From NCBI GenBank assembly GCA_907163375.1, contig CAJQUW010005334.1:1-64000 (forward strand): a stretch of DNA of 64,000 nucleotides, written 5' to 3'. Position 1 is the stretch's first letter. Each line of letters starts with the position of its first letter. Below the pieces are notes generated by a model. The model was not told the DNA's origin and did not search any database. It worked only from the letters and a program-made list of their open reading frames with translations. The position numbers were made by a program, and so were the translations under genes. The DNA comes from Prostheceraeus crozeri (lineage: Eukaryota; Platyhelminthes; Polycladida; Euryleptidae). Positions 4,606 through 55,015 of this stretch are shown here, in pieces.

Positions 4606-5490
4606 CTGAAACATTATTTCCGTATGATTAGAACATGAACCTTACGGGGATAAAGTGCAGCAATCTAAAGTACAGAAAATGCAAGAAGACAAAAGCAGAA
4701 AATTGTCGTATTTCTCTACATAAGCTGCCATGGCATCTTCTTCGGTTTTCGCCGACTTGAAGCATAGAAATGCTTCAAATAAGCAGCCAGTGTTAATCTT
4801 TTCTTGTAATTTTTTGTCACATTTGATAGATACTGTCTAATTTTGTTATCATAATTGCTTTTAGGGTTAATTCTAGACAATGAAAAAGAATTATTTTCAT
4901 GTAGATTTTCAAACTTTTAGACAGTTGCTGAAATAAGTGATGATTTTACAATATGAAAAGATTGCGTTTAATTACCAGTTATGTTGATGTCAATCGTACC
5001 TATTCTTTCTGGAAGCAAAATGATTTCAATCGATATTGCTAAGTTTAGCATCAACATTGTCCTTCCATAGACAGAAGCAGCTGACAATGTGGAAGATGCA
5101 ATATCGGCAAGAGATAGAAATTGATTACGGCGGAAACGAATAAATGTGACTATCCCGTTCATTCGAAATGTTGCCATTCGCATTGAATTTAGAGTAAATC
5201 AGATGTTCGGCTTTCAAACGTCGAGCGGCACTCAAATGTGCTGCAGCAGCAGCAGCAAGTTGTGGCAAAAACTCCCTTAAGCTTGGTCCAAAAGTAGATC
5301 AAATTGATTCAAAAAGTAAAAATCACAAATGGACATTCTAGCCGTCAATGGCAGCCTCTGTGTATTTCGTCTCGTGTTGAGTCTTGTCATTCCTATCGTG
5401 TCAGTGTTCGTGCTCTTACAATTATACACAATTAACATTAAGCAGCATATTCGCTTTAACCAATGAAAGTGATAATCAAAATAAAGCCTA
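4606..5490. other. Myosin VI intron 1, no gene seen
   Basis: The sequence is AT-rich intron. It holds a short AGC microsatellite near 5241-5260 (gctgcagcagcagcagcaag). No exon or mobile element was recognised. Confidence 0.5.
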
Positions 5491-9808: not shown

Positions 9809-10812
9809 CGAGGGTCGTTAGAAAAGTATCCGTATTTTGAATTTTTAACATTGAGAAATGACGCCGCGACGAAGCTAGCACTTATTATATCTATGGTAGT
9901 GCTCTGTCAATTGGGTATTCAAATTTCAAATCTCTAGCACAAGTGAATTTTTTATAGATGTCTATCGTCTGTCAGATAGATAGCTTTGCTATCCGCCAAT
10001 TTAAGAATCACAAATCTGCAGAAGATTTTCAAATTGTTTTGTGCAATGGAAGACGCTGTCTCGCAACAGAGAGCCATCATCTTTTTCTTGTGGAAGGAAG
10101 GCAATTCATCCTCCAATATTGCTGAACGACTTTCAATTGTCTTTGGTGATAAAGCCTTGAAGACGAAGATGCAGTCAAGAATGTGGTGTGCTTGGGGAGA
10201 TCCTTCACCTTTGAAGGCAAAGACTGCTCCATCCTGTCAAAAGGTGATGATTTCAGTGTTCTGGGACGATTGATCTTGGTGGACTACCTACCGAAGGGCG
10301 CGACCATCAACTCTGAATACTTCTGCAAGCTAGTGAACGAAGATCTGTGGCACCAACTCAAGAATCGAAGACGTGGGAAGCTTTTCATGAAACCAATCCT
10401 CCAAATGGACAACGCCACGCCGCATACCGCTGTGCGAACTAAGGATTTGCTGGAGAAGTTAGGCTGGGATGTGTTGCCACATCCCCCCTATTCGCCCGAC
10501 TTGGCCCCTTCAGACTTCCATCTCTTTCCTCGCTTGAAGGAACCCCTGAGAGGAAGAAGATTCTCCTCTTTGGATGAGATGAAGGAAGCGGTGGAGTCCT
10601 GGAGGCAAACTACTCCCAAGGAATTCTACCTAGGTGGACTCCGTTCCCTGGTAAGTCGGTGGAGGAAGTGTGTATCGAGTGGGGGAGACTATATTGAGAA
10701 ATTGCGTGATGACAGTGAGTAATGTTATATGTTAGTTTGCATGAAATTACACTGTTACTGGAATTGGGAGTTTTCATTTTACTCTGCCCGGTAACTTTTC
10801 TAACGACCCTCG
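9809..10812 (+). mobile_element. Internally deleted mariner transposon
   Basis: The termini are inverted repeats: CGAGGGTCGTTAGAAAAGT at 9809-9827, and its complement acttttctaacgaccctcg at 10794-10812. TA dinucleotides flank both ends (9807-9808 and 10813-10814), as expected for Tc1/mariner target duplication. At 1004 bp it is shorter than the roughly 1.3 kb of complete mariners. It contains a broken DD34D transposase (separate entry), so it could move only if supplied with transposase in trans. Confidence 0.93.
10046..10722 (+). pseudogene. Mariner transposase, deleted and frameshifted
   Basis: The start region from 10046 reads MEDAVSQQRAIIFFLWKEGN and matches the N-terminal helix-turn-helix of mariner transposases. 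The block that normally holds the first catalytic aspartate is gone: the sequence jumps to KVMISVFWDD. A frameshift near 10265 then leads into LILVDYLPKGATINSEYF, QMDNATPHTA and PPYSPDLAPSDFHLFP. The second aspartate (in MDNA) and the third (in APSD) are 34 residues apart, the mariner DD34D signature. With the first aspartate missing and the frame broken, the protein cannot be functional. Confidence 0.9.
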
Positions 10813-11070
10813 TAGATGGTTATGCTGTATGTCTGTGTTTGTCATGTTGCAGGGTTGCTGGGCTTGCGTCTCCACGTTTGGCAAAGACGGGTTAGAGACT
10901 GGGGGAGGCATCGATTCACCAATCTAGACAGAATGCTTTCAATGGCTCTGGACGTCTGTCACACCCAATAAAATGGTTTAACTTTCGAGTTTCCTTCTCC
11001 TAGGCGAAATAGCTTAAAAAGGATTAAGGAGCTTCACCTGCCCCAGCCTTAGATACCTTGATTTTTCTGG

Positions 11071-11490
11071 CTCCCTCCACCTTCACCTACGTCAGCATTA
11101 AATCTGGACTTTGAAAATGACATACCCACCGTCACCGAAAGTAAAATTGACTATGCTCTGAGCAGTGTAAAGAGTGACAACTCCACAGGCCAATTTGCAA
11201 TACCACCTGAAATACCAAAATTTGGAGGAAAACCTGTCAAGCATGCCTTGATGAGACTGTTCTCTTCTTACATACAACAAAAACGAATACCGAACAGTTG
11301 GAAGAATGCAAATATGATACTTATATACAAGAGAGGTCTACTGTCAGTTGTTTACTAGCTCTTTGCTAAGGTCCTAATCAATAGGATACGCAATAGATTG
11401 GATGAGCAACAACCGGCGGAACAAACTGGTTTCCGTTATGCTACATATGAACATGCTGATGTCCAAGCGGTTTTAGATGACTTTCTAAAG
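11071..11490 (+). pseudogene. RTE-type LINE reverse-transcriptase fragment
   Basis: In one frame the sequence reads LNLDFENDIPTVTESKIDYA, LSSVKSDNSTG, then KHALMRLFSSYIQQKRIPNS with WKNANMILIYKRG. This is the start of the reverse-transcriptase domain of RTE-clade elements. A small deletion removes the NYRPIS block. After it comes LLSVVY-stop-LFAKVLINRI and DEQQPAEQTGFR. The in-frame stop, the deletion and the abrupt end before the catalytic YADD region show a dead fragment. It abuts the oppositely oriented LINE that follows. Confidence 0.8.
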
Positions 11491-11589
11491 CCGATCATCC
11501 AAGTCATCCAAGTTCAGAATTGTTTCAGCGAAATTTCACCTGACACTGATTTTTTTACAGGATTTTCACCCCTAGCACAGCTATGAGCC

Positions 11590-13680
11590 ATGAACGAAGA
11601 TAGGGATTACTCAATGAAAAGGCAACAAATTGCACTATTTAAATACATAAAAAGAAAAAACAGATCTTCTAATCTGATTAAGCAGTCTCCATCAGAAACA
11701 TGTTCGCACGACTCTTGAAAGTATCAAGATTGCATTGGTCAGGGAAAATGGTCTGGGGGAAGCTGATTCCAGAGCTGTGCCGTGCGAACAAAAAAGCTTT
11801 TCAAGCGACTCACAGTGCGTGCGCGTTCAAAGCTGACATGATAGCATGTGAGTGCATTAGCTCTGTGTGTGCTTTGGAGAGGATCTCATGCTTGGGTACG
11901 CACTCATTTACTGCAGTGTAATTACTGCAGTGTGTACATCTACCGAAGTAGTATCTGTAGAAGAGACTGAGTGAAGCAACATCTCGTCTGACGGAGAGAG
12001 GCTGCAACTTGCTAGCAAGTTTTTCACCCATAAGATTCTTTACACGTTTCTCAACCCGTTCAAGGATGTTAAGATGCGTTTGTGGGGCAGTTGATCTCTC
12101 ACAGATTCAGTTGAAAATATCCAGGGCAACTGATCCCGTCTCACCACGTCTGTCAAGGACACGACTCAAATGTTCAGTGACATATGAAAGAAGATCTGCA
12201 GTTGATCGAGAGTGCCTGAAGCCATACTTTTCTTCTGATAGAAGGTTCTGAGTTTTAAGGAAGTTAACAATATGTTGGCTAATCACTGCTTCAAAAATCT
12301 TGCCAGCAATTGGAAGCAGGCTGATATGAGGGTAACTAGATGAAGAGATGAGTCAGAACCTTTCTTTGGAACTAGAACCACGGAAGCTACTTTCCAACAA
12401 AAAAATCACTGGTCGATTGACATCTACTGAACGGTTTGGATAAAAGTGGAGGAGGCTCAGGTGGGAGATGCTTGAATATCGAAACCGGAATGCCATCTAT
12501 TCCACTCGTCTTGGAGCTATCGAGACCTGCGATAATCTTTTTGACGTTTCGGACTGTGAGTTAAGGAGGACTAACCGTCTCATCAGTGCGCGTGGAAATT
12601 GGAGCTGGAATTCTACCTCCATCGTCCAATGCTGAATTCTTCGCAAACTTCTTACAAAGAAGCTCGGCTTTGTCTGCTGAGGTTGTCGCCAAAGAAGTAC
12701 TGACTTCGGCATGACAAAGTGCTAGGATGGAGGATTTGTTCCTATTGGTGACACTGTTGTAAATCCTCCAGAAGTCATTAGAGCCAAGCTTTTGATTATC
12801 AATGGATTTCCGTACATACAAAGCGTAGCATAGCGATGTATGGTTTCCTTGCAATTTCTACGTGCGGTTTTGTACAATTCAAGATCGCCAGCGGTACTGT
12901 CACGCTTTAAATACTTATGAAAAAAGTGGTCACGCGGGCAGGTTGCAGCTGCACATTCTGGTGTAAACCAAGGTTGTGAATGGGGCTTCATTTGGAAAGT
13001 ACGGTGAGGAATGTAGGCCAACATCCCTATCTGAAGCCACTCTGTCAGTTCTTGCGCCGACTTGTGGATCATGTTATCGCTCAGAATCAAATTCTCAGCT
13101 TGAACTTGACTAAGAGAACTGTGGAAACAGATCAAGGAGATATCCAGTATCCCCAACTTGGTCAGGATTTTTTACTAAGGTTGTGAGAGACAGCGAAACA
13201 CTGTTGTCTGACCGGAGAGATCAGTGGTGCGTGAGTGCACAAGCCAGTCAACATTGTGTACGTTGAAGTCACCAAAAACGGCAACCTCAGCGCTGGGATA
13301 CTCTTGTACAAGAAGAGATTATCGATCTTATCAGAAAGAACATTGAAAATGTCCGCATTGGTTGATGGAGAGCGGTGTAAGAAAAAAAATATAAGAAGAG
13401 TGGTTTTTGTAGCGGCGGAATAAAGGCAAGATACTCATGCCTTGGATCCTCGGAGCTACAAAACCTTCTCAAGGGAAGGCTAGTCTTGTCATAACCATGA
13501 CAATGTGCTTTATCCATCCGGTGAAATATGTATCCATCAGGAGTAACATCGCTTGATGACACCCTGGAATCTATCCTGGTTTCCGACAGGGCTAGAAGAT
13601 CTGGTGACTTACCTTGGAGGAAGATGTTGATGTCGTCGTAATTGGACCTCAGTCCTCTTTCGTTGCTGAAGCTGATCTTG
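11590..13680 (-). pseudogene. CR1/jockey-like LINE, internally deleted
   Basis: Read on the minus strand from 13680, the endonuclease begins KISFSNERGLRSNYDDIN followed by SPDLLALSETRIDS and, after frameshifts, a GDFNVHN-like block near 13260. The linker between endonuclease and reverse transcriptase is at 12561-13156 (PWFTPEC, then KLGSNDFWRIYNSV). The early RT block DSSKTSGIDGIPV is near 12530, and KYGFRHSRSTADLLSYVTEH is near 12215. The catalytic core is missing: sequence passes directly into the post-RT block KLQPLSVRRDVASLSLFYRY near 12000 and LDTFKSRANMFLME near 11700. The order is right for a full LINE, but frameshifts, stops and loss of the core make it inactive. Confidence 0.82.
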
Positions 13681-13869
13681 AGAAAGGTTTTGAGCTTGAC
13701 AGTTTGACTACGTTTCTCATTTTCATAATTTCTCGTAGAATATCAATCAAATAAAGGAAAATTATGATGTACAACAAAGTGATACAAGAAACTTTGGAAG
13801 GCATCAGAAAAATGTAAATAGTAGCAACAAAACTGTAATTAATAATATGCAAAAAAAGACACTTATAGA

Positions 13870-14395
13870 CACATTTCATGTCGTAAAAGCTTGAAGAAAC
13901 CCTAATGAGAACCCCTTTTCCGTAACAATGGGTACAAGTCAGGTAGGCCACAGAGGAACCACACAGAGCCACAGGTAGGCCACAGAGGATACAGCTACAA
14001 GGGCTAAAAGCTACAAGGCTACCCACACATGTCCGTGGCAGTGGAACTGTACTGCATTTTTCGATCAGTTGACCGGGCCTGCCTCCCAAAACATTAGCAG
14101 CGGGTTCGGGAAACCTCGAACTACCTGACGCCCGTATGCCGTGAATACGTTGGATCTGTCACACCTCTACCTGCAACAAATGGGGAAGTGCAAAACAGAC
14201 CAGTGGAAGAAGTTCGATCACAATTGAACCAAATAAGTACCATGCTCAAAAACCTAATTCAACAACATGAAACATCTGATGAATGTTCATATCTGGGAAG
14301 CCAGGGAGTGGTGATAATTGCGACGGCCGAAGCCAACCATGCATTTAGAACAAACGAGCGTGGAGCATAAGAATGAACAATTAATCAAAATTAAA
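13870..14395. repeat. Dispersed repeat, copy A
   Basis: This sequence shares a collinear series of words with 32415-32945: catttca.gtcg, gggtacaagtcaggta, gctacccacacatg, cccgtatgccgtgaatac, tctgtcacacct and cgtggagcataagaatgaa. The two copies have similar length and the same orientation. No protein is encoded in either. It is most likely a non-autonomous mobile element of unknown class. Confidence 0.7.
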
Positions 14396-15689
14396 TATGT
14401 TCAATGACTAGTAAGATAAAATAATATTTCAGAGCCTGCTAGTTAGCCAGAACACGGTCATTAACAGCCGACAATAAATTTTTCCGACAAGGTAGAACCC
14501 AAAGAAGCGTGAGCTTCAGACGACACAGCCTTATGCGACTCCGTTTTCACCCTTTCACCGCTTTGAGGCCGCAGGTTGAAAAAGAAAGGGTAGATTGATG
14601 CATAATGTGCACGTTGTTTGTAGAATATCAATCAATAGGCCGATAAATGCAAATGAAAACGATAATTCAGTTCATTTTTACGATGTAAAATGCGCAATGT
14701 CTAACTTCTTGAGACAAAAATCCCACATAATGATGTGCAGATATGATAGGCCTATCGCGTTGATATTCATGGTGCTTTGTAACTACAGCCTGTATGCTAT
14801 AACGTATGCCTCAATTTCGTATCCAGTACTTGTAAATCAGGGGCCTATGGCATTCGTACAAAGCCTTGAAGTCACTGAGTGTCATCTATTATACTATACC
14901 TATCTTTCCTGATATTGATGCCTCTCCAAATGCAATTTATAGCTACACACGGGCTAAATAAATAGATAAAACAAAAAATTTGCTGATGACATCAAATACC
15001 GATCCATTTGCTTGTTACAACCGAGCTCTTCATAAATGATGCTGTCATGTTCGCTCCAAACGAGTTCTCGCTACATGCGAGCCTGTTGTAAGTGGATTAT
15101 ACTGTAGGTCTATCTAAATTTTGATCATTTATCAATTGCCATCATGCATTCATATTTTTCTTCTGAAAAGCTTCTGGGAAAATAATTAGCGCCTTCTCTT
15201 AGCAGGGTCGCCTATAGCCTAGTATTCTACACAGAACTACCTAGGTATTCTCTCACTATGGTCACTCTCACTCTGCACTGTGACAATTATGAAGTCATTC
15301 ATTAAATGCAGAACGTAGTCTATGCAACGTCTACGCTACGTCTATGCAAGAACGTAGGGTACACCGGCATCAAATACATGTAGTTAGGCCTAAATTACGC
15401 TACTTACGAATTTCCATGAGACACAGTATTCTTCACACATCAAGACATATTCACAACTTTTTTTAATTATGATAGCTAGTGCTTAGTACCTGGCGCGCAG
15501 ACTAACGCAAACTAATGCGCGAGTTAACATGGCACGCCGACTTATACAGTAGCAGTTAATATTGTTGTGATTCCTTTCCGAACTGCTACTGAATCCGCCC
15601 AGGAGATCCACCACGTTGAAGGGACTACGTGAAACCGATTGGATTCTCGGTATGTCGTAGATGTCGATCAGTAAATGAATGTTCTAGTG
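14396..15689. other. Gene-free stretch
   Basis: No coding exon, RNA gene or element ends were recognised. The longest open frame (14595-14912) has no family resemblance. A short direct duplication of tctacgctacgtctatgcaa-like text lies at 15320-15350. Confidence 0.4.
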
Positions 15690-16674
15690 CAGGGGTGCGC
15701 AACCTGCGGCCTTACGGCCGCATGAGGCCGTAGCAGAGGCAAAGTGCGGCCGTGAGATGAGAATGAGAAGTAATTGAAATAGAATATTGTACATGTACTT
15801 ATATATTGAATTATTTCTAGAGTTCAAGGCAATCGAAAAACAATCGTCACTATAGTAGCATGTTATTCACCTTTATGCCCATGTTGCTTGGAAAAATTCG
15901 CGCCCGCAGGCGCGATGAAGGCTTTCAAGCAGTTCGATAAATCATGAACAGAATATTTTCGGGAAGTTACATTTATGTGCATTCATGGCTAGATTCATCA
16001 GCTAAACGAAACAAAGGGGACAATTGTAGTTTGCGCAAATTGTTCGCGCGCGTTTTTCCAGTCCATGACCTAAATAGAGATGCCTGCGAGATCAGTTTCT
16101 GCAGCGGTAGTGTTGTGTGCTTTATGAAACAACGGACTGAATTGAAAGATGACTGCGCCCTAGAAGAGGAAGCGATTATTGCTCGAAGAAAAACGCCAAT
16201 TCAATAAAAGTTTGGATGTTGATTTTTTGTCACTGTGATGCCAAATGGACTTTTGAAGTGTCTCATTTGCGAAGAAGTAATTAAGGCCGTAAAAAGTGAT
16301 AATGCAAAACACTACCCTCGTCACGAATCTAGAAGGCGTGAGAAAAATCTGCGTAGCAAATCTGATCAAGAAAATACACCAGAAAGCGACAAATGACGGT
16401 TGCCCTTACAAATAAATGCTTTCAACTTTTAAAGTGCTAATGACACCTTAAGCTTAAAATATTTTCGGGTCAAAAATGACCGTCGGTCGCATGTGGGTTA
16501 ACTTGCTAACTCATCCTTAACAAGATAACATTCATCGGGGAAGGCTAATTTGAGTGGTGGAATATATAAAGGATTGGCTATTGACCTGGTTGTTTGCACA
16601 CATATTGAGTGCGGCCGTGATTCTTTCGGCCTTCGAAATGGCGGCCGAAAAATGCAAAAGGTTGCACACCCCTT
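15690..16674 (+). mobile_element. hAT-like element with 8-bp target duplication
   Basis: The left end is CAGGGGTGCGCAACCT (15690-15705). The right end is the near-complement aaggttgcacacccctt (about 16658-16674). An exact 8-bp direct repeat, ttctagtg, flanks it at 15682-15689 and 16675-16682; an 8-bp duplication is the hAT hallmark. The CAGGGGTGCNCAACC terminus is typical of animal hAT families. The 985-bp body keeps only a BED-like zinc finger, so it is a deletion derivative. GGCCG-rich subterminal repeats sit at both ends (15707-15760 and 16612-16650). Confidence 0.87.
16238..16396 (+). pseudogene. BED-type zinc finger remnant of hAT transposase
   Basis: The 52-codon frame contains KCLICEEVIKAVKSDNAKHY then PRHESRR: a C-x2-C ... 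H-x3-H pattern with the N-x-x-x-H spacing seen in BED or GTF2IRD2/ZMYM-type hAT transposases. It lies inside the hAT element at 15690-16674 and has no catalytic core after it. The upstream frame at 15944-16207 may be part of the same coding region with a stop between (LEEEAIIARRKTPIQ-stop). It would bind transposon ends if expressed; I infer it is inactive. Confidence 0.6.
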
Positions 16675-16682
16675 TTCTAGTG

Positions 16683-17194
16683 TGTACAGGGTTAAATGGA
16701 TGACAATCACAACGACGTGGAATCAAATCTGCAGGAGCTCACTCAAGTGTATATAAGCATAACCCATCTTGTCCGTGTTAATGCCTGCGAGACCCTTAAC
16801 GCTGCATTTAGCGACAAGTCTTCATATCCACAAAGGTTTACGACCCTGACAGCACCTCACGCACACACTGCAAGATTATGATAGGCAGTCCAGATTGAAT
16901 TAATTGGTGTGTGATCCCCTCTTTAAAGAGGCGAGCTACTGAAGAATTCATCGCAGATGATTGAAAGAAATAAAAATTTATGTTGCTTTATATGGACTTA
17001 ATTGAGTTGTATGAGATTCCAGGCCCTTTTTCCCTCCTTCAATTAGTATTCTCATGATTGACATTATTTCAATAACACGTTTTGCATGGGCAGCAGAAAA
17101 AGTGCGTGTTGATTGTCGGGCATTAAAACATATCAATGCAGGCCTACAATTAAATAATCGCATAAAATTATCCAAAGAATAGTATGACGTTAAA
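16683..17194. other. Gene-free stretch
   Basis: This is the sequence between the hAT element and the left terminus of the foldback-like structure. Nothing was recognised. Confidence 0.4.
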
Positions 17195-17254
17195 GACGTA
17201 TTCGACTTTGAAAACGCATTTGCAAATGTTTAGAGAAATGTTCTATGATTAGTC
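17195..17254 (+). repeat. Left terminal inverted repeat of foldback-like structure
   Basis: This pairs with 28840-28901 in inverted orientation. The outer 40 bases match almost completely; the inner part has a few substitutions and a two-base length difference. Confidence 0.75.
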
Positions 17255-17620
17255 CATTTTCAGCAAATCAAATCACTCAAAATTAAATTTTTATTTTTTT
17301 TCGAAATATCTTGAACTTCCCAACTATCCCCACTTAAGCGAAATCATGTGTCATTATTCTTTTATGTCTGACATTATGGACTCACAATCCAATCATATTG
17401 CCAGATGCCTGGTAGTAGAGAACGCGGTGGGCAATCCAGCACGCTCATTGCAATGTTAAGGCACGATAAAATTGGTTTGATCTCTACCATGAACCAGACA
17501 AATTCGAAAAAATTCGACCCCAAACCTGGTGAGCCGACTAAGAGAAGTGGTTGTCCAGTCATACGTATACCCTATACTATCAGATGCCTCAACTTCAACA
17601 TTCATTGCTCCCTCAAGCTG

Positions 17621-20008
17621 TTTGCCATGCGCAAACGTCTCGTTCGTGCCAAACATGTGACATTTTCTGAATTCTCCTCTAAACTCTATGCGTTTGTCTT
17701 CCTATGCACCCTTAGATGACGCGTTTGTCAATGCTAAGCATCTTCACAATAGTCACAGGTACCTCCATGTCAAATTTCATTGTTGTATCGTGACATTTGC
17801 CATGCGCAAACGTCTCGTTTGTACCAAAAATGTGACATTTTGTGAATTCTCCTCTAAACTCTATTCGTTTGTCTTCCTATGCACCCTTAGATGACGCGTT
17901 TGTCAATGCTAAGCATCTTCTCAATAGTCACAGGTACCTCCATGTCAAATTTCATTGACGTATCGTGACATTTGCCATGCGCAAACGTCTCGTTTGTACC
18001 AAAAATGTGACATTTTGTGACTTCTCCTCTAAACTCTATTCGTTTGTCCTTCCTATGCCACCCTTAGATGACGCGTTTGTCCAATGCTAAGCATCTTCAC
18101 AATAGTCACAGGTACCTCCATGTCAAATTTCATTGTTGTATCGTGACATTTGCCATGCGCAAACGTCTCGTTTGTACCAAAAATGTGACATTTTGTGAAT
18201 TCTCCTCTAAACTCTATGCGTTTGTCTTTCTATGCACCCTTAGATGATGCGTTTGTCAATGCTAAGCATCTACACAATAGTCACAGGTACCTCCATGTCA
18301 AATTTCATTGACGTATCGTGACATTTGCCATGCGCAAACGTCTCGTTTGTACCAAAAATGTGACATTTTGTGAATTCTCCTCTAAACTCTATTCGTTTGT
18401 CTTTCTATGCACCCTTAGATGATGCGTTTGTCAATGCTAAGCATCTACACAATAGTCACAGGTACCTCCATGTCAAATTTCATTGTTGTATCGTGACATT
18501 TGCCATGCGCAAACGTCTCGTTTTTTAAACCAAAAATGTGACATTATGTGACTTCTCCCCTATAAACACTATGCGTGGGTTCCCTTTCCTAGGCACCTTT
18601 AATGACGCTTTTGTCAAATGCTAGGCATCTTCACAATAGTCACAGGTACCTCCATGTCAAATGTCCATTGTTTACGTGACATTTGCCATGCGCAAAACGT
18701 CTCGTTTGTACAAAAATGTGACATTTTGTGAATTCTCCTCTAAACTCTATGCGTTTGTCTTCCTATGCACCCTTAGATGACGCGTTTGTCAATGCTAAGC
18801 ATCTTCTCAATAGTCACAGGTACCTCCATGTCAAATTTCATTGACGTATCGTGACATTTGCCATGCGCAAACGTCTCGTTTGTACCAAAAATGGTACATT
18901 TTGTGAATTCTATAAACTCTATGCGTTTGTCTTCCTATGCACCCTTAGATGACGCGTTTGTCAATGCTAAGCATCTTCACAATAGTCACAGGTAACTCCA
19001 TGCCAAATTTCATTGTTGTATCGTGACATTTGCCATGCGCAAACGTCTCGTTTGTACCAAAAATGTGACATTTTGTTGAATTCTCCTCTAACCTCCGTGC
19101 GTTTGTCTTCCTATGCACCCTTAATGACGCGTTTGTCCATGCTAAGCATCTTCACAATAGTCACAGGTACCTCCATGTCAAATTTCATTGACGTATCGTG
19201 ACATTTGCCATGCGCAAACGTCTCGTTTGTACCAAAAATGTGACATTTTGTGAATTCTCCTCTAAACTCTATTCGTTTGTCTTTCTATGCACCCTTAGAT
19301 GATGCGTTTGTCAATGCTAAGCATCTACACAATAGTCACAGGTACCTCCATGTCAAATTTCATTGACGTATCGTGACATTTGCCATGCGCAAACGTCTCG
19401 TTTGTACCAAAAATGTGACATTTTGTGAATTCTCCTCTAAACTCTATTCGTTTGTCTTTCTATGCACCCTTAGATGATGCGTTTGTCAATGCTAAGCATC
19501 TACACAATAGTCACAGGTACCTCCATGTCAAATTTCATTGACGTATCGTGACATTTGCCATGCGCAAACGTCTCGTTTGTACCAAAAATGTGACATTTTG
19601 TGACTTCTCCTCTAAACTCTATGCGTTTGTCTTCCTATGCACCCTTAGATGACGCGTTTGTCAATGCTAAGCATCTTCTCAATAGTCACAGGTACCACCA
19701 TGTCAAATTTCATCGTTATATCGTCACATTTGCCATGCGCAAACGTCTCGTTTGTACCAAAAATGTGACATTCTGTGAATTCTCCTATAAACTTTATGCG
19801 TTTGTCTTCCTATTCACCCTTAGATGACGCGTTTGTCAATGCTAAGCATCTTCACAATAGTCACAGCTACCTCCATGTCAAATTTCATTGTTGTATCGTA
19901 ACATTTGCATGCGCAAACGTCTCGTTTGTACCAAAAATGTGACATTTTCTGAATTCTCCTCTAAACTCTATTCGTTTGTCTTCCTATGCACCTTTAGATG
20001 ACGCGTTT
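17621..20008 (+). repeat. 175-bp satellite array, left (plus orientation)
   Basis: There are about 13-14 monomers of 175 bp with landmarks tttgccatgcgcaaacgtct, accaaaaatgtgacatt, cctatgcacccttagatga and caatagtcacaggtacctcc. Some monomers in the middle (about 18500-18720) carry insertions and substitutions, so this array is older or less homogenised than the right one. Each monomer holds an open frame of 60-75 codons, but 175 is not a multiple of three, so these are repeat artefacts. The array starts at the sequence tttgccatgcgc, the same phase as the outer edge of the right array. Confidence 0.95.
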
Positions 20009-23000
20009 TTTCATGACTTCATTCGTGTCAACGATATCTGTTAGGCGATGGCTATGTCATTGACACGTTGACTATAATGCAATCGCTAAATCTTTTCCAA
20101 GTAAGTAATCGGAGTACCTATTAAAGCAGTTCACATTAAAGTCGTGTACATAATTGTGTCGACAATGATTTACACATACAAGCATGAGCTCGCAATCAAT
20201 CGACCGAGGTCGCAAAAAATCGTTGTGAATTTTGTGTTTCTTAAAAGGCTTGCATGCATTTTTGTAACAGACCCGCAACATAGCAATTGTCAAATTATCC
20301 AGCCTGTAAATGCATACAAAAATAAGTCATATATATAATTGTTTACCTTCACGGCATCAACTTCATAAGTTGAAAGATATTTTACAAGTGCACAACTTTG
20401 TAAGCAATAAAATATCTATGGAAGAATCGTTCACTTTAACACTGAAGGTTACTGATACGCCTACATCCGCACTAAGTGGAGGAAGATATCTGTCCAAAAT
20501 CATGCCAACAAAAAAATTCTTCCAGCGCTGCCACTGAAAAAATGGTGCATCAGAGTTTTTGTTGGTATTTCGAATAAAAGCCAGTGGCTAAGCTAAGTGA
20601 TGAGTTCGAAAACTTCACAGTAAATCATAGCAGAAAGGTCACCCAAACCAATGGGGCTAATGTATAGACCAGTGCTTTCAAATGTCGTGTCGCTATCAAG
20701 CAAACCATCTGGGGCTTCCATCAATATGGAACCATCTGGGGCTTCTTCAAGCGGAAAAGATTTTGCTTTCTGTTACGGACCCGATAATACTGGAAACTCT
20801 TAGATTGTGTCAATAAATACCGCTCCAGGTTACTTACCAAGTAAATTTTACCAGCCTATGTCATATACCTATAAAGATAAGACCCAGCTATCCCAAACCT
20901 GGATGCATGTGTTCTACCTGCTGACCGAGACACATAGGGCCTAGTTATTTCTTGACAAAGTGCATTGCTAATCGACGACTGAAGAAAATATTTCAAGAAT
21001 GCGAGATTGACTGGTAGCCTATCAAAAGTGCGATGACATTTATATTACTAGGCCTATTGTTTCTGAACATAATCAGAACCATAGAAAAATAACCTTCATT
21101 AGGCCTGTACGTTTAATCATGCATTTAGTCAGTCAATTATTTTTTTAAGCAACCACAGATGTTCAGGTCTTTGTTGAATGGCTTGTAGCCCGTGAGTTAT
21201 TAATAAGATTTGAATGGTTCAACGATAGAAGGGCTAATTTTTTGTACTTTTAATAATCATAAAATATTTGATTTTCATCAACTAATTCATAAAGTTTTAT
21301 AAATTTTTTCATTCAATTTTTGCTTTTAGTCAATTTTTTCAGACTTCAAGTGTCAAACACGCAAGGCTGAAGTAGCAAATTGCCTTTTTAAGACATGATA
21401 TTTTCAAAAGCTATGTATTCTCAATGAATGGAATTAATATTTTTGAAATTTGTTATCGTCATGTTATGAATGTTATTTCAATAAACACCAATTACAAGAA
21501 ACTGACGGAATTAGCTATGCATTGTGAAGGAGAAGCAATTTGAATAATTGGATGACGAATGCAAAGTCACCTTGAGTCAAATTAAGCCAGATAAAGAAAC
21601 TTCTGCCATGGTTTAGTCCGATGGTATTGTCTTCAATATAGTGGTAGCATTATTGCTTCGCACCGTCATTGCTATCCTTTGAATCAGGAAATATCGAGAC
21701 CTTGATTCTGCAGAATTATACCTGACGTTGTTGGAAACATCAGACACAACTTGGTGACTGACGGTTGCCATGTGCCCATTGTTTCTACGTAAACTGATAC
21801 AAAAAGGATGATAAGATGGAATACTTAAGCCCCTCACGGTCTTCGTCTAGCGTGGCAGTTTTTCCTGTTTCTTCTGTTGTTATTTCTTGATAAATTGGTG
21901 TCATCGTGCTATTGTATTAACGTGTATTTTGATACTATGGTTTTCTATCATGGCATGAATACGCGTCAGTTCAAAATGTCGAAATGCAATTTGTTGCTGC
22001 AAACTTAGCATGTTCGAAAATTGAGGTCTGAAAAATCGGCTAAATAGAACTTGTCAGAATTTCATGAATCAGATAATGATAATGAAGCGGTTTTTCATCT
22101 TTGGAAAATTCAGGAAATAAACTTTTCTATTGATGTGGAATCATTTAGATCCTGTAAGTAGTTCACTGGCTGCAGCTCATTGAGGAAAGGCATATGCTTA
22201 TATAATTATATATTATTATTATATTTTAAATTCATATAAATTTAAGAACCACCGCTCACATAATTAGTAACTTTTAAAAAATTAGTTCGGTAGAGTCAAA
22301 TATCATTCATTATCTAACATAAATTTGGTGGCAAAATTCATTTGGGTTGATCCAATCACTTCTTGATTGTATATATCTTTGTTCATAAAGTGATCTGTAC
22401 AATCAAGGAATCCTTGGTTGATCTGAAGTTATAGTGCTCTCATCTTCGTTTCACTCAAAATCAGATACATTACATACAGTTACTGATGATGGCATTGCAT
22501 TCCAAATGCTATTCCAGTCGGTTTACATCGAGGTGGTACAAAAGGTTTTACAGTCGAATGGATATTTGATATACCTATGGAGCTTTCATTGAAACAATAC
22601 GAGGTCATCATTGGAACTGCACGAGGACTTTCCTTCTATGTGACTATTTCCCATATTTGTGAATTCTATTTTTGGAGGAAGCATGGTTCTTATGAAAGCA
22701 TAGTAAAACTCATCATTGTTTTGAATTTTTAAACATGCACTTTTTGAATTATTGAAATTCGGAAATGTTATTTTCTGATAACTGATTGGAACAATGGCTC
22801 AGTGTAGAATGCAATTTTTACTGATATCTTTAAGGAAAACTGTGCCATATCGGCCTATATTAGTTTGGTATTTGGATGTCTCTTATGAAATCAACAAAAG
22901 AATGATTGTTATAAGTGATTGATTTCCTCAGAGAAGCTCTTCATATCGATTAAAGAGGGTCGATTGGAATGATGAATTAAATTTAGTGAGCAATTACCAA

Positions 23001-25051
23001 TCATTTATTGATTTATGCAATGTTAGAAATGTTTATCCTTGTTTTGAAGAGTTAGAGGTTTTAGGAGTAATTCATCCTAAAATAGCCTTTGAAACAAGGT
23101 GAAATACATAAAATCATCGAAATAACAAAATTCCTCATCTTTTGCATGAATCATGATAGTGTTATTGTTTTAGATACTGTAGTAATAATATCATCCTGGC
23201 TCATAAATCATATGTGATATTCGGCAAGCGCAATACAATTCCACAATAACACATGTTACAAGACAAAGAAGGATGCAGGATACAGTTATTACGGATGGAT
23301 AATGTCGGAAACTTAGAAGAGAACAAATCCCTCAGATAATGTGATTCATCGGCAATCACTATTGTCAATAATGAATTACACATGCTACCGACAGCGTCCG
23401 TAAATTTTGGCTCGATGATCACTTCATTAATTTTGGAGGCCCGTTTCTTGACTTGGAGGATTTTATGTTTTAGATATTCTGGAATATTGGTGAAGTTGAC
23501 AGTCAAACTTGACTGAAGTTGAACTTGAATAGTTAACAGTTAAATTACAAATGTGATTTTACGTGAAATTGAGCCCAGTCCTGTATTAAGGATTTTATTG
23601 GAACAAACATGTGATTTACACATGGGAAGTCCAAACTATCCTAAGTATATATGTAGCTGATTTCCAATTTGATAACATGATTATGGACATCGATGACAGA
23701 GTTTCTCAGTACCATTGTAAATAGAGAGGTTTTTGAGAATATATTAGATACGTTATTTCTAATATTTCTCAAAAAGTTGTAAGGCAAATTTAGTACCCCT
23801 TGAAAAATATTGCTGATATCTGGGAAAGCCCGGGAGAAATACGGGAAAATGAAAATCGAAAGTCTGTCGACACCCTGTAATATCAAAATAGAAAATGCGC
23901 CGCATGACGTGCTTTGTTATGGAAAAGTGTGATGGAAAATCTTGCAATCACCGGATTGGTGGACGGTGGACGAGCTACTGGTAAACAAAAGCTGCCATTT
24001 GTGAATACGATATCAAAAAAAAATCATAAGAAAGAATAAACATGCCAAAAACGCATCTGGGTAGCTATTGACAGATATTTTGATGCCATGGTACTCAGAG
24101 CTAAAGAAGTTGGCGACGACATAGTCGACATGGTCAATGTTATGTTGTCATTTTCACTCAAGCTATTCATGCAAGTACGTTATTGCCAAGTACGTTTTCG
24201 CAAAGTGTGATGCAGAATTCTACTTTAAAAACTGCACTAGCCACTTTGTGACTGAGATACATAATACTGCGCCGAATTTACATCATTTTCTGGATCATCT
24301 TTTTGGATTTGGAATAGTTATCTCTTCAAAGACAGGTAATTTATCACATTTTACTTCATATGAGTATCACTTTAGATTGTTGAAGGAGTCGCTACTTCCA
24401 CAGACTTATTTGGCAACAAATTTACTATGAAAAACGATAACAGTCGACAGCAATATAAGCCGATATAAGCAATTCATTCGAGTGTCTTGACTCCCCAATG
24501 AAATGCTGCTTTCATTAACAGTACAATGTCTTATGTTATAAATTATGCGTTTTATTCTTGTGGCACAGAAATTTCAGATATTTCGTGTTACGGAAGCTCT
24601 AGAGTCTAGAGGATATGCAGCTCTTTCTGTCGACATGCATTATTTGAATTTTTGAAATGTCCTGAATAAGTCAATCAATAGGAGTTACATTTATTGATTA
24701 CAACGCATGCTCAGATCAACAAGTAAATATCATTTTCAAACTAACCTCATACATTCAAACTTCTACATTAAATTTTGTGCATGTATATAAGAGCAATAAT
24801 AATAGTAATACCTTAAAATACCCCTGGCTCTTTCCAACCACAAAGCTGAAAATGACAAGTCAGGGCCTCTTTCAATCAAATTCGAAAGAGGTTTCAGACT
24901 CGCCGTAAATCGGTAGTCAGAACTCTTGTATCGGAGTGTAATGCTTCTCTCCAGTGTTACGGGAGTAAGGATACAAAATCTGTCTACCCGAGCACTCATC
25001 GCTTTGTTTCTGCATAGGAGCACAATCTTTTTGTTTTTTGACTTCTGCCGT
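20009..25051. other. Unique middle of the foldback-like structure
   Basis: This 5 kb AT-rich stretch has no recognised protein. It has an ATT-rich microsatellite near 22200-22235. Short coding-like runs occur at 22932-23098 (separate entry) and at about 24045-24210 (WVAIDRYFDAMVL then RAKEVGDDIVDMVN). Text near 23875-23780 on the minus strand (agggtgtcgacagactttcg, then cccgtatttctcccgggc) resembles termini of small DNA elements. Confidence 0.45.
22932..23098 (+). other. Exon-like open segment, function unknown
   Basis: A 55-codon open segment reads SSYRLKRVDWNDELNL, VSNYQSFIDLC, NVRNVYPCFEELEVLG and ends PKIAFETR. It is bounded by a pyrimidine-rich acceptor (tttcctcag) and a possible donor (aaggtgaaat). 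Composition is more protein-like than its surroundings. I do not recognise the family. It might be a stray exon or a relic of a transposon protein in the middle of the foldback-like structure. Confidence 0.25.
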
Positions 25052-27871
25052 TTTTTTGGGACGAAACGAGATGCCTCTGAATGGAATCGTCAAGATGCAA
25101 CGAAATTTAACATGGAGGTACCTGCGACTATTGTGTAGCATTGAAAACTTATCATCTAAGGGTGCATAGGATGAAAAACGCATAGAGTTTATAGGAGAAT
25201 TCACAAAATGTCACATTTTTGGTACAAACGAGACGTTTGCGCATGGCAAATGTCACGATACAACAATGAAATTTGACATGGAGGTACCTGTGACTATTGT
25301 GAAGATGCTTAGCATTGACAAACGCGTCATCTAAGGGTGCATAGGAAGACAAACGCATAGAGTTTAGAGGAGAATTCACAGAATGTCACATTTTTGGTAC
25401 AAACGAGACGTTTGCGCATGGCAAATGTCACGATACAACAATGAAATTTGACATGGAGGTACCTGTGACTATTGTGAAGATGCTTAGCATTGACAAACGC
25501 GTCATCTAAGGGTGCATAGGAAGACAAACGCATAGAGTTTATAGGAGAATTCAGAAAATGTCACATTTTTGGTACGAACGAGACGTTTGCGCATGGCAAA
25601 TGTCACGATACAACAATGAAATTTGACATGGAAGTACCTGTGACTATTGTGTAGATGCTTAGCATTGACAAACGCGTCATCTAAGGGTGCATAGGAAGAC
25701 AAACGCATAGAGTTTATAGGAGAATTCAGAAAATGTCACATTTTTGGTACGAACGAGACGTTTGCGCATGGCAAATGTCACGATACAACAATGAAATTTG
25801 ACATGGAGGTACCTGTGACTATTGTGAAGCTGCTTAGCATAGACAAACGCGTCATCTAAGGTTGAATAGGAAGACAAACGTATAGAGTTTAGAGGAGAAT
25901 TCACAGAATGTCACATTTTTGGTGCAAACGAGACGTTTGCGCATGGCAAATGTCACGATACAACAATGAAATTTGACATGGAGGTACCTGTGACTATTGT
26001 GAAGATGCTTATCATTGACAAACGCGTCATCTAAGGGTGCATAGGAAGACAAACGCATAGAGTTTATAGGAGAATTCAGAAAATGTCACATTTTTGGTAC
26101 GAACGAGACGTTTGCGCATGGCAAATGTCACGATACAACAATGAAATTTGACATGGAAGTACCTGTGACTATTGTGAAGATGCTTAGCATTGACAAACGC
26201 GTCATCTAAGGGTGCATAGGAAGACAAACGCATAGAGTTTAGAGGAGAATTCACAGAATGTCACATTTTTGGTACAAACGAGACGTTTGCGCATGGCAAA
26301 TGTCACGATACAACAATGAAATTTGACATGGAGGTACCTGTGACTATTGTGAAGATGCTTAGCATTGACAAACGCGTCATCTAAGGGTGCATAGAAAGAC
26401 AAACGTATAGAGTTTAGAGGAGAATTCACAAAATGTCACATTTTTGGTACAAACGAGACGTTTGCGCATGGCAAATGTCACGATACAACAATGAAATTTG
26501 ACATGGAGGTACCTGTGACTATTGTGAAGATGCTTAGCATTGACAAACGCGTCATCTAAGGGTGCATAGGAAGACAAACGCATAGAGTTTATAGGAGAAT
26601 TCAGAAAATGTCACATTTTTGGTACGAACGAGACGTTTGCGCATGGCAAATGTCACGATACAACAATGAAATTTGACATGGAGGTACCTGTGACTATTGT
26701 GAAGATGCTTAGCATAGACAAACGCGTCATCTAAGGGTGCATAGGAAGACAAACGTATAGAGTTTAGAGGAGAATTCACAGAATGTCACATTTTTGGTAC
26801 AAACGAGACGTTTGCGCATGGCAAATGTCACGATACAACAATGAAATTTGACATGGAGGTACCTGTGACTATTGTGAAGATGCTTAGCATAGACAAACGC
26901 GTCATCTAAGGGTGCATAGGAAGACAAACGCATAGAGTTTATAGGAGAATTCAGAAAATGTCACATTTTTGGTACGAACGAGACGTTTGCGCATGGCAAA
27001 TGTCACGATACAACAATGAAATTTGACATGGAAGTACCTGTGACTATTGTGTAGATGCTTAGCATAGACAAACGCGTCATCTAAGGGTGCATAGGAAGAC
27101 AAACGCATAGAGTTTAAAGGAGAATTCACAAAATGTCACATTTTTGGTACGAACGAGACGTTTGCGCATGGCAAATGTCACGATACAACAATGAAATTTG
27201 ACATGGAGGTACCTGTGACTATTGTGAAGATGCTTAGCATAGACAAACGCATCATCTAAGGGTGCATAGGAAGACAAACGCATAGTTTATAGGAGAATTC
27301 AGAAAATGTCACATTTTTGGTACAGACGAGACGTTTGCGCATGGCAAATGTCATGATACAACAATGAAATTTGACATGGAGGTACCTGTGACTATTGTGT
27401 AGATGCTTAGCATTGACAAACGCGTCATCTAAGGGTGCATAGGAAGACAAACGCATAGAGTTTAAAGGAGAATTCACAAAATGTCACATTTTTGGTACGA
27501 ACGAGACGTTTGCGCATGGCAAATGTCAGGATACAACAATGAAATTTGACATGGAGGTACCTGTGACTATTGTGAAGATGCTTAGCATAGACAAACGCAT
27601 CATCTAAGGGTGCATAGGAAGACAAACGCATAGTTTATAGGAGAATTCAGAAAATGTCACATTTTTGGTACAGACGAGACGTTTGCGCATGGCAAATGTC
27701 ATGATACAACAATGAAATTTGACATGGAGGTACCTGTGACTATTGTGAAGATGCTTAGCATTGACAAACGCGTCATCTAAGGGTGCATAGGAAGACAAAC
27801 GCATAGAGTTTAGAGGAGAAGTCACAAAATGTCACATTTTTGGTACAAACGAGACGTTTGCGCATGGCAAA
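25052..27871 (-). repeat. 175-bp satellite array, right (minus orientation)
   Basis: There are about 16 monomers of the same 175-bp repeat as at 17621-20008, inverted. The innermost copy (25052-25175) is diverged; the rest are very uniform. Two monomer types, distinguishable at gaattcaca versus gaattcaga and at agagga versus atagga, alternate through most of 26552-27825. That makes a dimeric higher-order repeat of about 350 bp, with the last two dimers nearly identical. The array stops abruptly at 27871 within ggcaaa. Confidence 0.95.
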
Positions 27872-28839
27872 TTGTAGATCGGATTGTCAAAAAGAATGAA
27901 GAAAAATGCCAACTCGCACGTTCTGCAGTAGAAAATGGTGCTTAGACTATGTACTGTGTATGTTTACTGTAATTGAAAACAATCGATGTAATTCTATTCC
28001 CACGTGCTGCGAAATTACAAACTTGAGACTATAAATACAACAAGAGCGGTTGCTGGGAAATTAGATTATTGACACAGCCAAACAAAGTCCAATAATATCG
28101 TAGGAAAGAGTTAAACGTGTTCTTGTTCCTCAATGCTATGGCTCAGGCATCCGATGGTTACTACAGTTGATCATCATTCATAGTAATTAATTGCTGTTGC
28201 AATTTGACTGAGAGAAATGTAGAGTTTGCACGATATACTTGAGCTTGCCTAATGTAACTGAATATCATCTTAATATTAAATTGCTGTTTATCTCCGATGA
28301 GCGTGACTGTGCTTGCACTGATGCAATTTCTGGTAAAGCCGGTACATCAAGAAAATTCACATCTAAAAAATTGAAATTCTGCAATCAATTTTTTCCTTAC
28401 TATTTAGCTGCTCGCTGATTCTGCTCAGATGTCTGCAATTGACTATAATGAAACTGTTGCAAAATGAATTGGTGATGTTGGTGCATGTTCAGCAATTTCC
28501 ATTCCCTGCCTGTTGTCGAGCCCTTGTCCGGATTTAGCTGTGCTACTGTTAAAAGCTTACAAAAGGCGGGAGCATGGCATAGCTGCTGCAGGCGATTCAT
28601 TGAAGCCAATCAAGAGGATGGATGGTTGATTTTTTCATTTTGGTGCCATCATTTGAGTTTATTGCCTCTCTGAACTCAAATGTTGCAAAAATTAGTGCCT
28701 ATCATGGTAGTATTTTTGTTTGAATAATATAGCAATATTACTTGTATTACGAGGTAGTTGTTTAATTCATCAGATGATTTGAAGTTTTGTAAGCTATAAC
28801 TGCAATTCAGTAAATAAACTATACTACTGATTAAAAAAC
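27872..28839. other. Gene-free stretch between array and right terminus
   Basis: I recognised no coding or element sequence. An open minus-strand frame at 28400-28609 has no family resemblance. Confidence 0.4.
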
Positions 28840-28901
28840 GGACCAATCATGGAACATTTTTTCTAAACATTTGCAAATGCGTTTTCAAAGTCGAATACGT
28901 C
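28840..28901 (-). repeat. Right terminal inverted repeat of foldback-like structure
   Basis: This is the complement of 17195-17254. The bases just outside (ccataaagtaaa here, gtatgacgttaaa on the left) do not form a clear target-site duplication. Confidence 0.75.
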
Positions 28902-29194
28902 CATAAAGTAAAATCATAAAATTCTCGATTGGCATATCAACAGTTTCGTACGAAATCATGTATGTGATTCAATTAATTTACTTCAGAGAAACAGATTTGA
29001 CCTAGAGAATGATCAAACCCATATCAAACCCATCAAACGGATAAATAATTACAACTATGCCAGCCACTACGGGCTTCGTTGAACATGATCAGTGGAGTCT
29101 CCATGATATTACCCGTTAGAAAGAACTTTGCACGCTTTACATCGGCTTTTTGCACTTCGAATTTGATTGACAATATAATTAAATCAAAAAGGAC

Positions 29195-43878: not shown

Positions 43879-44690
43879 ATTTTTCCAGATCACTTGCTGT
43901 TATTTATTAAGTTTTCATTATTTATTATTGATATCACTGGACTTTATCTGTATCGATATGTCAATTATAACTGCCAAGTGAAAATGTATTAGCTGTTGTT
44001 TAAATAATTGCAATACATCGCAAACCTTTTTTAAATCTATGGGTCCAGCTGGACCCAGTCACACTGATTCGTTTCATCGGTCGTCATAGCGCAGAAATTC
44101 AGTCACTGCTATTCCAAATAACAAAGGCCCGTATTCGTGAAACCAGATAAGGATTTCCCGTATCCTTAGCGACGCTATATCTTAGCCTTATCCTGACCGT
44201 CATATTCGTGAAGGCAGCTATCGTCACGCGCTCACGATGTGTAGCATTTTTTTTTATTTTTAGCCTTAACGCCATGCACTTCAAAGGCTGACAACTGGTC
44301 AGATTTTGGAGACGTTGAAATCACAGGCGCACTTGCAAACGATTCCATCGATTAGTTTGTCGATCTGCCCAGGCCGATTGGGCCGCCTCAACTCGCCTGA
44401 TACAATGCGAAACAGTAGATAATGAAGCATCGGAATAGCGGTAGTGCTTATTGGCTGCACACAGACACACGCACACTCCTTCCCTGCACACAAAGACACA
44501 CGGGATAACGCAGCTGAAACTTCGCTTTGCTTCAAAGCTTTTGCTATCGTCGCTATTGTCGCACGCAGGTGCAACTGTGACGAACTAATGAAATCGATTT
44601 TGATGTGACGCGTGAACAATGCTCCCTGCCTGCGCTTGGCTATGAGACCGCGCAGGCAGCCGTTCTGTCATTACACCGCACTGCTGTTTT

Positions 44691-49479: not shown

Positions 49480-50104
49480 TGAATCACACGATTAATTCTT
49501 TAACTGAATGCACATTTTATTTGGAAATTGAAGGACATTATAATTTGAATGGTTGGCTTAGAATGTTTTTTCAAGTCATGTTTTTACACCTGATTTACAA
49601 ATACGATTTATTTGCTACTCACATGTCTGAATAATAGTGACGCACCATATACACTCCATCTGGACACTCATATCAACGCTAATGATCTTAAACAAAGGAT
49701 GGCAACATGCATATTATCCTCAATGAATAGTGAAAACTGCGCCGTCAGTTTTCACTTCGACGAACTGAATCACACCCTCACACCACAGGAGGAATCCGTG
49801 AACTGACTGATAGACGTAGCGCGCGGCGAAGAAATGCTTTGCAATGTTCGAAGTCGGGAGGCTCGCCATCTTGAAGACATGATAATCCCTTCTCAGAATA
49901 GGTCAGAAATATAAATTAGATAATTGCAGAGGTTGGGATGCATTAGAATAAAGTAATGCTTTAGAAATAATCATGAAAACTGATTACTCGTGCAACATGC
50001 TCGTGACACACTCGTGAAACATCGGGAAATGATAGCAACTCTGCCTTATACAGACTTCTAAATATAGCACCCAATATAGGATTCTCGTCACGAATCCTAG
50101 TCAT

Positions 50105-50153
50105 TTAGGCCCCAGTAAATTTAGGCCCCACAAGAAATGGTCATTTAGGCCCC
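50105..50153 (+). repeat. Triple TTAGGCCCC motif at the left palindrome edge
   Basis: ttaggcccc occurs at 50105, 50121 and 50145. The complementary set is at 63024, 63048 and 63064 on the right edge. The motif marks the outer ends of the arms. Confidence 0.8.
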
Positions 50154-51607
50154 ATGTTCTTATGTTATTTTAAATACAAGATTACAATCAAAACCAAGAA
50201 AATGTTATGATACATAGGAGCCATACATTACAGAAATATGCTTGGTTTTATCAAAGATGCCGCAGAATTGTCTGGGGAGTGGTATGTGGATTGTTCGAGA
50301 ATGTCGAAAACACCGGTTTATGATGTTATTTTAACCACGGACAGTTGCAGCGTTTATGAGGTATCAAAAGACTGCAAATTTTATGAAACCACCAGAAATG
50401 TCAATGGTTTTACAAGAAATTGTAGTAGTTGTATTTAAATAGCAATAATTCAAAATTGGACATATTTCATTCACGTGATCATGATGTTATTTTTATCCTG
50501 CAAAAACATACAACAAACTTGGTATCATTGGATAGAGAATTGTTCACTCTATCTAGAAATATCAACGCTTTTACAGAAAATGCTGACACAATGTCGGAAA
50601 CTACAGATTGATATATTTTGTGCATGGATGTTTCTGTCACAAATTCCTTCTAAATTTATGTTAGATTTTGTTTAAAACGCTGCAGCACGCATTTCTAAAC
50701 GTACCAGCTGGACGTGAAATTTTGTGGTCTGCCGCTATTAACGAAGCTATCAGCCTATATCTACGCACACGGCATGTTTCAAGGCAGCAGGGAAAGTAAG
50801 TATCTTTTATTTCATTGCAATGAATGTTTAGTCTTATTGCAGGGAGTTAGAAACAACCCTATATAGATAACTAAAGAATAGAAGGGAGTGCTATGTACAG
50901 GGCACTGTGCATATGCAGCAGATGAATAATGAGTAATGAATAAGCAGATGTTGATGGAATGGCTATGGCTACTGCATGGGTTGAGTCGGCAAATATTTGG
51001 TCTCGCATCTATTACACCGGCTATCTGGTGGTAGCAAGCTTCCATTTTTGTTGTCGTGTCTAGTTGCTCAGAAATTTTTGACTCCAAATCCCTCAATGAA
51101 ATAAGTGTGTGTCTTGATTTGTTTGTTTGTCTTGCTTCACCTTTCGTGGTCCTGCTTTGCATCCTACAGGCACGCGTGAACAGGGGACTAGGGAAAGCTC
51201 AGCCCGCCTAATCTTCAACCAGACACATTGATCTCGGACTTTTGATTGCACATGAATGATATTGAACTACATATAGATGAGCTGGCAGTGGATGCCAATG
51301 CAACTATTGCTTGCACTTACCTAAGTCATGAATACCTTTAGAGTGTTCAAATTGTCATGATTCCATCAAACTTTAGGAAATCCAATCCACATGTCAGACT
51401 CTTTTTGCATGTATCAGATACTGTGATCGATTTTTACCACCATGACAACTAGATCATTAGATTCTAAGAACATCTCCACGACAACTTCGCAAGCCGGGTC
51501 GACCAGAGAAATTTGATTTGTGCCTCGGAACAACCCTCAGATACATGGCTACGAAGACAGAGATTCGAACATTCAGGCATGATGATTGCAGCAATCCTCG
51601 AAGCCTA

Positions 51608-54919: not shown

Positions 54920-55015
54920 GTCGTCTACGCTAACCCAAAGGATTTTCAGAAACCGTCAACGATGTGTCTTAGTGTTGGTCAGTGCAATGAATCAAATTTC
55001 AAAGCTGTTCAATGA
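54920..55015 (+). other. Possible terminal exon in the left arm
   Basis: After a strong acceptor (tttttcttcaacag), an open stretch reads VVYANPKDFQKPSTMCLSVG, QCNESNFKAVQ, then stop at 55013-55015. The sequence looks protein-like, but I recognise no family and no upstream exon. It is mirrored at 58165-58260. Confidence 0.25.

Follow-up and report, generated by a model that had tools for sequence, protein, structure and literature searches.

An 11,705-bp element with a foldback-like build lies at 17196-28900 of a 64,000-nucleotide stretch of DNA (the window) from the polyclad flatworm Prostheceraeus crozeri (contig CAJQUW010005334.1, positions 1 to 64,000), and is made up of 66-bp terminal inverted repeats (TIRs), two arrays of a 175-bp repeat that are inverted relative to each other, unique subterminal stretches and a middle. 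With a probability of about 0.87 we take it for a cut-and-paste DNA transposon, non-autonomous and with a body of foldback-like build, and for one copy of a family. The termini of 66 bp and the two arrays of this family are passed on and mobilized together, in 14 of 16 whole elements along with the middle, and insertion duplicates 9 bp of the target. That ends and arrays move as a unit had been raised conditionally by the initial annotation, which was made from the letters of the window alone, and it is now borne out by paired termini, 9-bp duplications, empty sites and shared boundaries.

The left TIR (17196..17260, plus strand), which starts ACGTATTCGACTTTGAAAACGC, and the right TIR (28835..28900, minus strand) are identical at 62 of 67 positions in a BLAST alignment of the two ends (E 9e-24), and both are recovered by a genome-wide terminus search described below. 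We set the boundary of the family one base inside that of the initial annotation at either end, because other copies begin ACGTATTC and the additional G/C at this place is part of the duplicated target. The left array occupies 17621..20008, where Tandem Repeats Finder (TRF) reports 13.6 copies of the 175-bp unit (92% matches, score 4065) and where monomer matches lie in minus orientation relative to the monomer query. The right array, inverted with respect to the left one, is placed at 25098..27871 (plus) by TRF (25136-27872, 15.7 copies, 95% matches, score 5019), by monomer matches and by arm complementarity, which over the best arms of 785 nt reaches 96%. Between the arrays lies the 5.1-kb middle (20009..25097, plus), in which the longest stop-to-stop frame wholly inside is 112 codons. 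Thus far the initial annotation, which had described two opposed arrays of one 175-bp repeat around a middle of about 5 kb, all inside short TIRs, was accurate. The arrays do not adjoin the TIRs, from which they are separated by about 360 bp of non-inverted sequence on the left (17261..17620, plus) and about 960 bp on the right (27872..28834, plus). Comparison of whole elements shows both stretches to be common to the family; the left end of the window copy is 91.6-97.2% identical to those of 15 other whole elements.

Composition of the family

The first 27 bases of the terminus, with at most two mismatches, occur at 108 places in the 2.05-Gb genome (48 and 60 on the two strands), and the reversed control motif occurs at none. 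The 100 listed termini, on 70 contigs, give 26 inward-facing pairs spaced by 3.0-28.8 kb (median 9.9 kb); the widest pair, on contig C6000, was paired from the motif places alone. Sixteen of these pairs, including the window copy (contig C4431), form the set of whole elements, and five further pairs were compared at their ends. Searches with end sequences of 206, 212 and 66 bp returned 41 matches each, taken from the best 40 of 124, 119 and 112 candidates. As about 40 candidates were scored in each DNA search (of 124, 119, 115, 112, 354, 260 and 1288), all counts from them are lower bounds.

All 16 whole elements carry monomers in minus orientation on the left (2-41 matches) and in plus orientation on the right (1-16 matches), the right array of C10596 being reduced to a single 58-bp monomer fragment. 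The foldback-like build proposed by the initial annotation, with inverted arms of tandem repeats in variable number, is therefore found in every whole element. The repeats do not lie inside one continuous long TIR, since the inverted part at the ends is only about 66 bp long. The arrays differ widely in copy number, and their outer edges stay fixed. In 15 of the 16 elements 414-441 bp lie between the left end and the outer edge of the left array, the exception, C8565, being shifted by a 490-bp insertion; on the right the corresponding distance is 1018-1057 bp in 13, and the remaining three (C10596, C8550 and C1077) have insertions or divergent or unmatched stretches there. In the 14 elements compared for this, the outer edges of both arrays fall on the same point of the monomer within one base, save for the right fragment of C10596. 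There is no higher-order period common to the arrays. Single arrays give hints of multi-unit blocks (lag 4 in the left array of C8514, lag 8 in the left array of the window copy), and TRF also reports a two-unit period in C8514, C13137, C2610 and C4266.

The middle is common to 14 of the 16 elements at about 94-99% over most of the aligned length, its main part having the same orientation in all 14. C8550 and C1077 do without the shared middle, and that of C10596 includes a divergent part at about 80%. A 1-kb piece of it matches 39 contigs (best ~40 of 1288 candidates), of which 37 carry a terminus recovered by the motif search or by the searches with 206 and 212 bp of the ends, and two (C12347 and C13227) do not. 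Among 38 end loci, which in part belong to the same elements, monomers are present within 1.7 kb in all 8 left loci and in 24 of the 30 right ones, and in 22 of these 24 they lie 956-1074 bp from, or directly beside, the full right end. The co-occurrence of termini and arrays at other loci, on which the initial annotation had made its proposal depend, is seen from the array side as well: 27 of the 30 array contigs among the listed matches of a monomer search (best 39 of 115 candidates) also carry a listed terminus. At one locus, L048 (C14069:93000-102893), two elements abut, their matched ends being 8 bases apart.

Insertion, competing readings and the enzyme

Target duplications were examined in 21 elements (C7058, C2488, C3158, C6000 and the second copy on C7045 being left out), and 15 of them have a perfect one of 9 bp, with 14 different sequences among the 15. 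As a control, flanks of different elements were paired with each other; 2 of 420 such pairings agree, both of them between C10596 and C2604, which share one site. There is no strong consensus among the 15 duplications. The flanks of two elements, joined over one copy of the 9-bp target, match an uninterrupted host repeat at 40 of 40 scored places each, for C11717 among the best 40 of 354 candidates and for C10596 among the best 40 of 260; the 41st match of the latter is a 69-bp extra piece. An insertion-free site of the kind that the initial annotation had suggested looking for is thus available for these two elements, but not for the window copy, whose single-copy flanks match only their own two halves in the assembly. 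The same copy is without a clean target duplication, and the initial annotation had made no claim to one: ACGTTAAAG (17187..17195, plus) and CCATAAAGT (28901..28909, plus), at the places where a 9-bp duplication is expected, do not match each other. Because its flanks are single-copy and the assembly holds no empty allele, the insertion of this copy is not directly demonstrable.

Several findings weigh against the reading of the element as a member of a transposon family moved as a unit by an enzyme in trans. Next to the window copy (C4431), five other elements lack a perfect duplication (C2610, C14069, C4266, C4019 and C6985, that is 6 of 21 in all), the flanks of C2610 agreeing over 8 bp at a shift of one. 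Of the listed termini, 48 of 100 are unpaired, 18 of them on the minus strand and within 14 kb of a contig start. At 6 of the 30 right loci the stretch read contains no monomer (L014, L019, L033, L034, L036 and L037); L019 is part of C1077, and the right ends of the other five break off after 203-849 bp. Terminus and monomer show no significant likeness, an equally good match being reached in 212 of 1000 shuffles. No Pfam family was found in any of the 31 frames of at least 50 codons that overlap the middle of the window copy, nor in a smaller set of five window frames, in scans that could miss spliced or badly decayed genes. Among the best 150 of 559 candidates for the MULE (Mutator-like element) domain PF10551 there is no match near a listed terminus, the one that shares a contig with a terminus being 218 kb away, and the two MULE copies that were read (L075 and L076) lack the terminal 15-mer. 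Likewise, none of the 62 matches to PF12762, which we take to be the Merlin type, is on a contig with a listed terminus.

A derivation of the monomer from the terminus, judged by the shuffle comparison of the two, has no support. Some inner frames at the cut-off right ends look like retroelement pieces by eye. L075 and L076 have open frames of 471 and 449 codons and short repeats in their ends.

As to the enzyme, a transposase supplied in trans would cut at the termini, and it is likely to be of the Mutator (MULE) type. Such a source is plausible because there are at least 150 matches to PF10551 in the genome (best 150 of 559 candidates), many of them in open frames of 450-500 codons. Merlin target duplications are 8-9 bp, and the length seen here fits that type too; the genome has 62 PF12762 matches (106 of 106 candidates scored), some in frames of more than 300 codons. 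That the enzyme is not a MULE but, for instance, Merlin or, as in the case of Galileo, one of the P type is therefore a minority possibility that we take seriously, and it gains from the fact that no autonomous MULE with the termini ACGTATTCGACTTTG was found among the best 150 of 559 MULE candidates and in the two copies read. Galileo shows that elements of foldback build occur within the P superfamily, although its duplications are 7 bp (PMC3573991) and those of MULEs 8-11 bp (PMC6446971), a range in which the 15 perfect duplications of 9 bp fall. MULE frames are also the more numerous in the genome, and the missing association of Merlin-type matches with terminus contigs speaks against that particular candidate. 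No Rehavkus-type transposase with a PHD finger occurs in the 31 middle frames, a source of it in trans not having been sought. Interior frames of at least 120 codons were listed in the first 14 whole elements, where three were scanned and the rest viewed by eye. The three scanned frames were rejected as transposases: they carry RVT_1 with an endonuclease (C2604), RVT_1 (C4411) and integrase zinc binding (C1077) and are read as nested retroelements. The frame in C4411 looks Penelope-like by eye.

A second explanation, that an ancestral composite was spread by duplication of flanking DNA and not by transposition, is improbable for the family as a whole. It draws on C10596, C2604 and C4266, whose flanks resemble each other and which have a common insertion point, and on the two inverted copies on C7045. 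Seven of the 21 elements, these three among them, sit in two host repeats; the insertion points of the other four, C11717, C2021, C7045 and C14069, are within 3 bp of each other, with C7045 oppositely oriented and the placement of C14069 ambiguous because its left neighbour is the end of another element. The perfect duplications, 14 of 15 of which differ in sequence, and the flanks, which in 14 of the 21 elements have no more than short stretches in common with those of another, refute it for most of the tested copies. Even for the common insertion point, host-repeat copies without an insertion resemble the joined flanks of C10596 at up to 99%, and the occupied flanks of C2604 are 95.8 and 95.6% like these joined flanks; as the empty copies are the nearer ones, this speaks for C10596 and C2604 being separate insertions at one point. 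Repeated hits on the same point of two host repeat families in turn suggest a strong target preference. The duplication reading may hold for the pair on C7045 (5790-12796 and 35512-42520), two inverted element copies of nearly equal length on one contig that are perhaps an inverted duplication, comparable to the palindrome of the window described below.

That short-TIR elements landed by chance around two satellite arrays, as unrelated nested insertions, would agree with the monomer-less right loci and with the 3 of 30 array contigs that have no listed terminus, but it is refuted for the family, since ends and array edges are common to all 16 whole elements and the middle to 14, the same layout recurs in insertions with different target duplications, and two of the three contigs (C1926 and C7285) carry arrays attached to truncated element ends. 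Helitrons are not known to make target duplications or to have terminal inverted repeats, and the perfect 9-bp duplications, the 66-bp TIRs and the arrangement of the arrays in two opposing blocks make a Helitron- or Helentron-like satellite carrier, as in oysters, extremely improbable here. What such a carrier has in its favour is that Helitron/Helentron elements often hold central satellite-like arrays (PMC12628747; PMC7492417).

Change and exchange in the arrays

For the transposon with its foldback-like body, the family allows changes of the arrays to be followed between copies. C2604 and C1116 are sister copies with 99.34% identity in an alignment of 9,738 bases (99.8-99.9% in the ends) and have a nested 2.28-kb retroelement piece in common, and their flanks and duplications differ. 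Their right arrays have 3.8 units each, and their left arrays 4.6 (C2604) and 12.6 units (C1116). A left array thus changed by about 8 units with hardly any change in the rest. Unequal exchange or repair synthesis inside the arrays could bring about such expansion and shrinkage. A left array on C1926 runs from about 9851 to 19681 and would comprise about 56 units if unbroken, as judged from its two ends, which were read; the left element end is truncated.

Distances were compared among 218 full-length monomers from 14 elements (partial monomers, C6985 and C7045 being left out), of which 13 entered the arm test, as C10596 has too few full-length right monomers. Left and right monomers of the same element differ by 6.31%, compared with a mean of 7.27% after re-pairing of the right arrays among elements, and none of 5000 shuffles was as low. 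The result holds when any one element is omitted (0 of 2000 each) and in the eight elements with at least three full monomers per side (0 of 5000). The residuals are negative in 13 of 13 elements, some of them near zero. An analysis with gaps counted also shows the greater likeness within elements. Age alone does not explain this likeness, because the re-pairing preserves the divergence of each array.

A direct trace of exchange between the arms is seen in C6985 (L069), where the left array gives way, at element positions 1175-1298, to a 125-bp piece corresponding to middle positions 4966-5090 in inverted orientation (96.8%), that is to the edge of the middle that adjoins the right array, after which the middle resumes from 2244. 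No comparable inverted edge piece is present in the other elements of the 16, a few of which have one or two much weaker inverted matches, of 63-66 bp at about 78%. On the simplest account, copying of the right arm together with a bit of the middle rebuilt the left arm, which was then joined up again, part of the middle being lost. The greater likeness of opposing arrays than of re-paired ones and the inverted piece in C6985 together lead us to conclude that the arms exchange sequence, and copying between the opposing arms, which would keep the arrays alike, is likelier than reciprocal crossover because the main part of the middle is unflipped in all 14 elements.

The origin and dispersal of satellite DNA is an old question. 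The tens of delimited copies in this family, their target duplications and empty sites and the near-identical sister pair make it possible to measure the rate of array growth inside a moving element, and also to ask if the opposing arms serve as templates for one another and if satellites ever become free of the element. The long arrays would be cargo that is spread by the transposon; it is possible that they provide extra enzyme-binding sites, for which we have no support here. No free satellite array was seen among the 30 listed array contigs with C10296 unread (about 150 of 485 monomer matches listed, best 39 of 115 candidates), and as the survey covers these best candidates, the absence of free arrays is unproven. 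More speculatively, the element could be a mobile satellite factory, in which repair at each move re-makes the array length, one arm serves as template for the other, of which C6985 would be an instance, concerted evolution inside a transposon thereby keeps up a satellite family, and the product is delivered with a strong preference to fixed points of particular host repeats; we offer this as a tentative idea that could well be wrong.

Outside the element, the window contains a palindrome at 50099-63078 with arms of about 6.2 kb, three segments of which are each 100% identical, and a spacer of 645 bases; it is due either to misassembly or to an inverted duplication of very recent date. A 580-codon open frame at 44646-46388 (plus) has the transposase domain PF13843 (E 1.1e-82) and is presumably of the piggyBac type, and a transposase fragment at 10153-10722 (plus; PF13358, E 2.1e-7) is mariner-like by eye.

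Relation to known foldback elements

A literature search with partial coverage gave no account of a like 175-bp foldback family, which may be described elsewhere. The nearest known case is Tetris, a foldback transposon of Drosophila virilis with tandem units of about 220 bp (PMC4079207), followed by Galileo-F of Drosophila mojavensis with units of about 210 bp inside its terminal repeats (PMC3573991) and by Tm1. The statement of the initial annotation that the units of known foldback elements are all much shorter was thus mistaken.

Like the present element, Tetris is non-coding and foldback-like, with tandem units in both arms and no transposase found; its unit number differs between near-identical copies, and its duplications are 8-10 bp (PMC4079207). 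It also has satellite-like arrays, of up to 66 units (PMC4079207). By the features that characterize Tetris, arrays in both arms and 9-bp duplications are present here, with a unit of 175 bp instead of about 220 bp. The differences concern the ends and the copy number. In Tetris the arrays adjoin an inverted flanking domain that can reach 866 bp, whereas here only 66 bp are inverted outside them and unique sequence lies in between; the Tetris units share a 37-bp stretch with that domain, in contrast to the lack of significant likeness between terminus and monomer here; and three structurally complete copies of Tetris are described, compared with 26 pairs among 100 listed termini (PMC4079207).

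In Galileo-F the unit numbers change independently on each side and some copies have non-matching target sequences, as in the present family, but the transposase is of the P superfamily, the duplications are 7 bp and the units number none to three (PMC3573991). Tm1, a Mutator/Foldback element of the root-knot nematode, resembles our family in its duplications of 8-10 bp, mostly 9 bp, in 45 of 53 elements, in its arms of variable-number tandem repeats and in its non-coding members, and differs in its units of 13-15 bp and in that some members encode a Phantom-type MULE transposase (PMC3169594). Rehavkus likewise has 9-bp duplications, terminal repeats of 26-400 bp and a repeat block near one end; this block is a minisatellite before the 3' terminal repeat, and the transposase has a PHD finger, whereas here there are two opposing arrays and no transposase was found in the element (PMC6446971). 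What sets the present family apart from these systems is the unique sequence between the arrays and the terminal repeat, the large conserved middle and the copy number.

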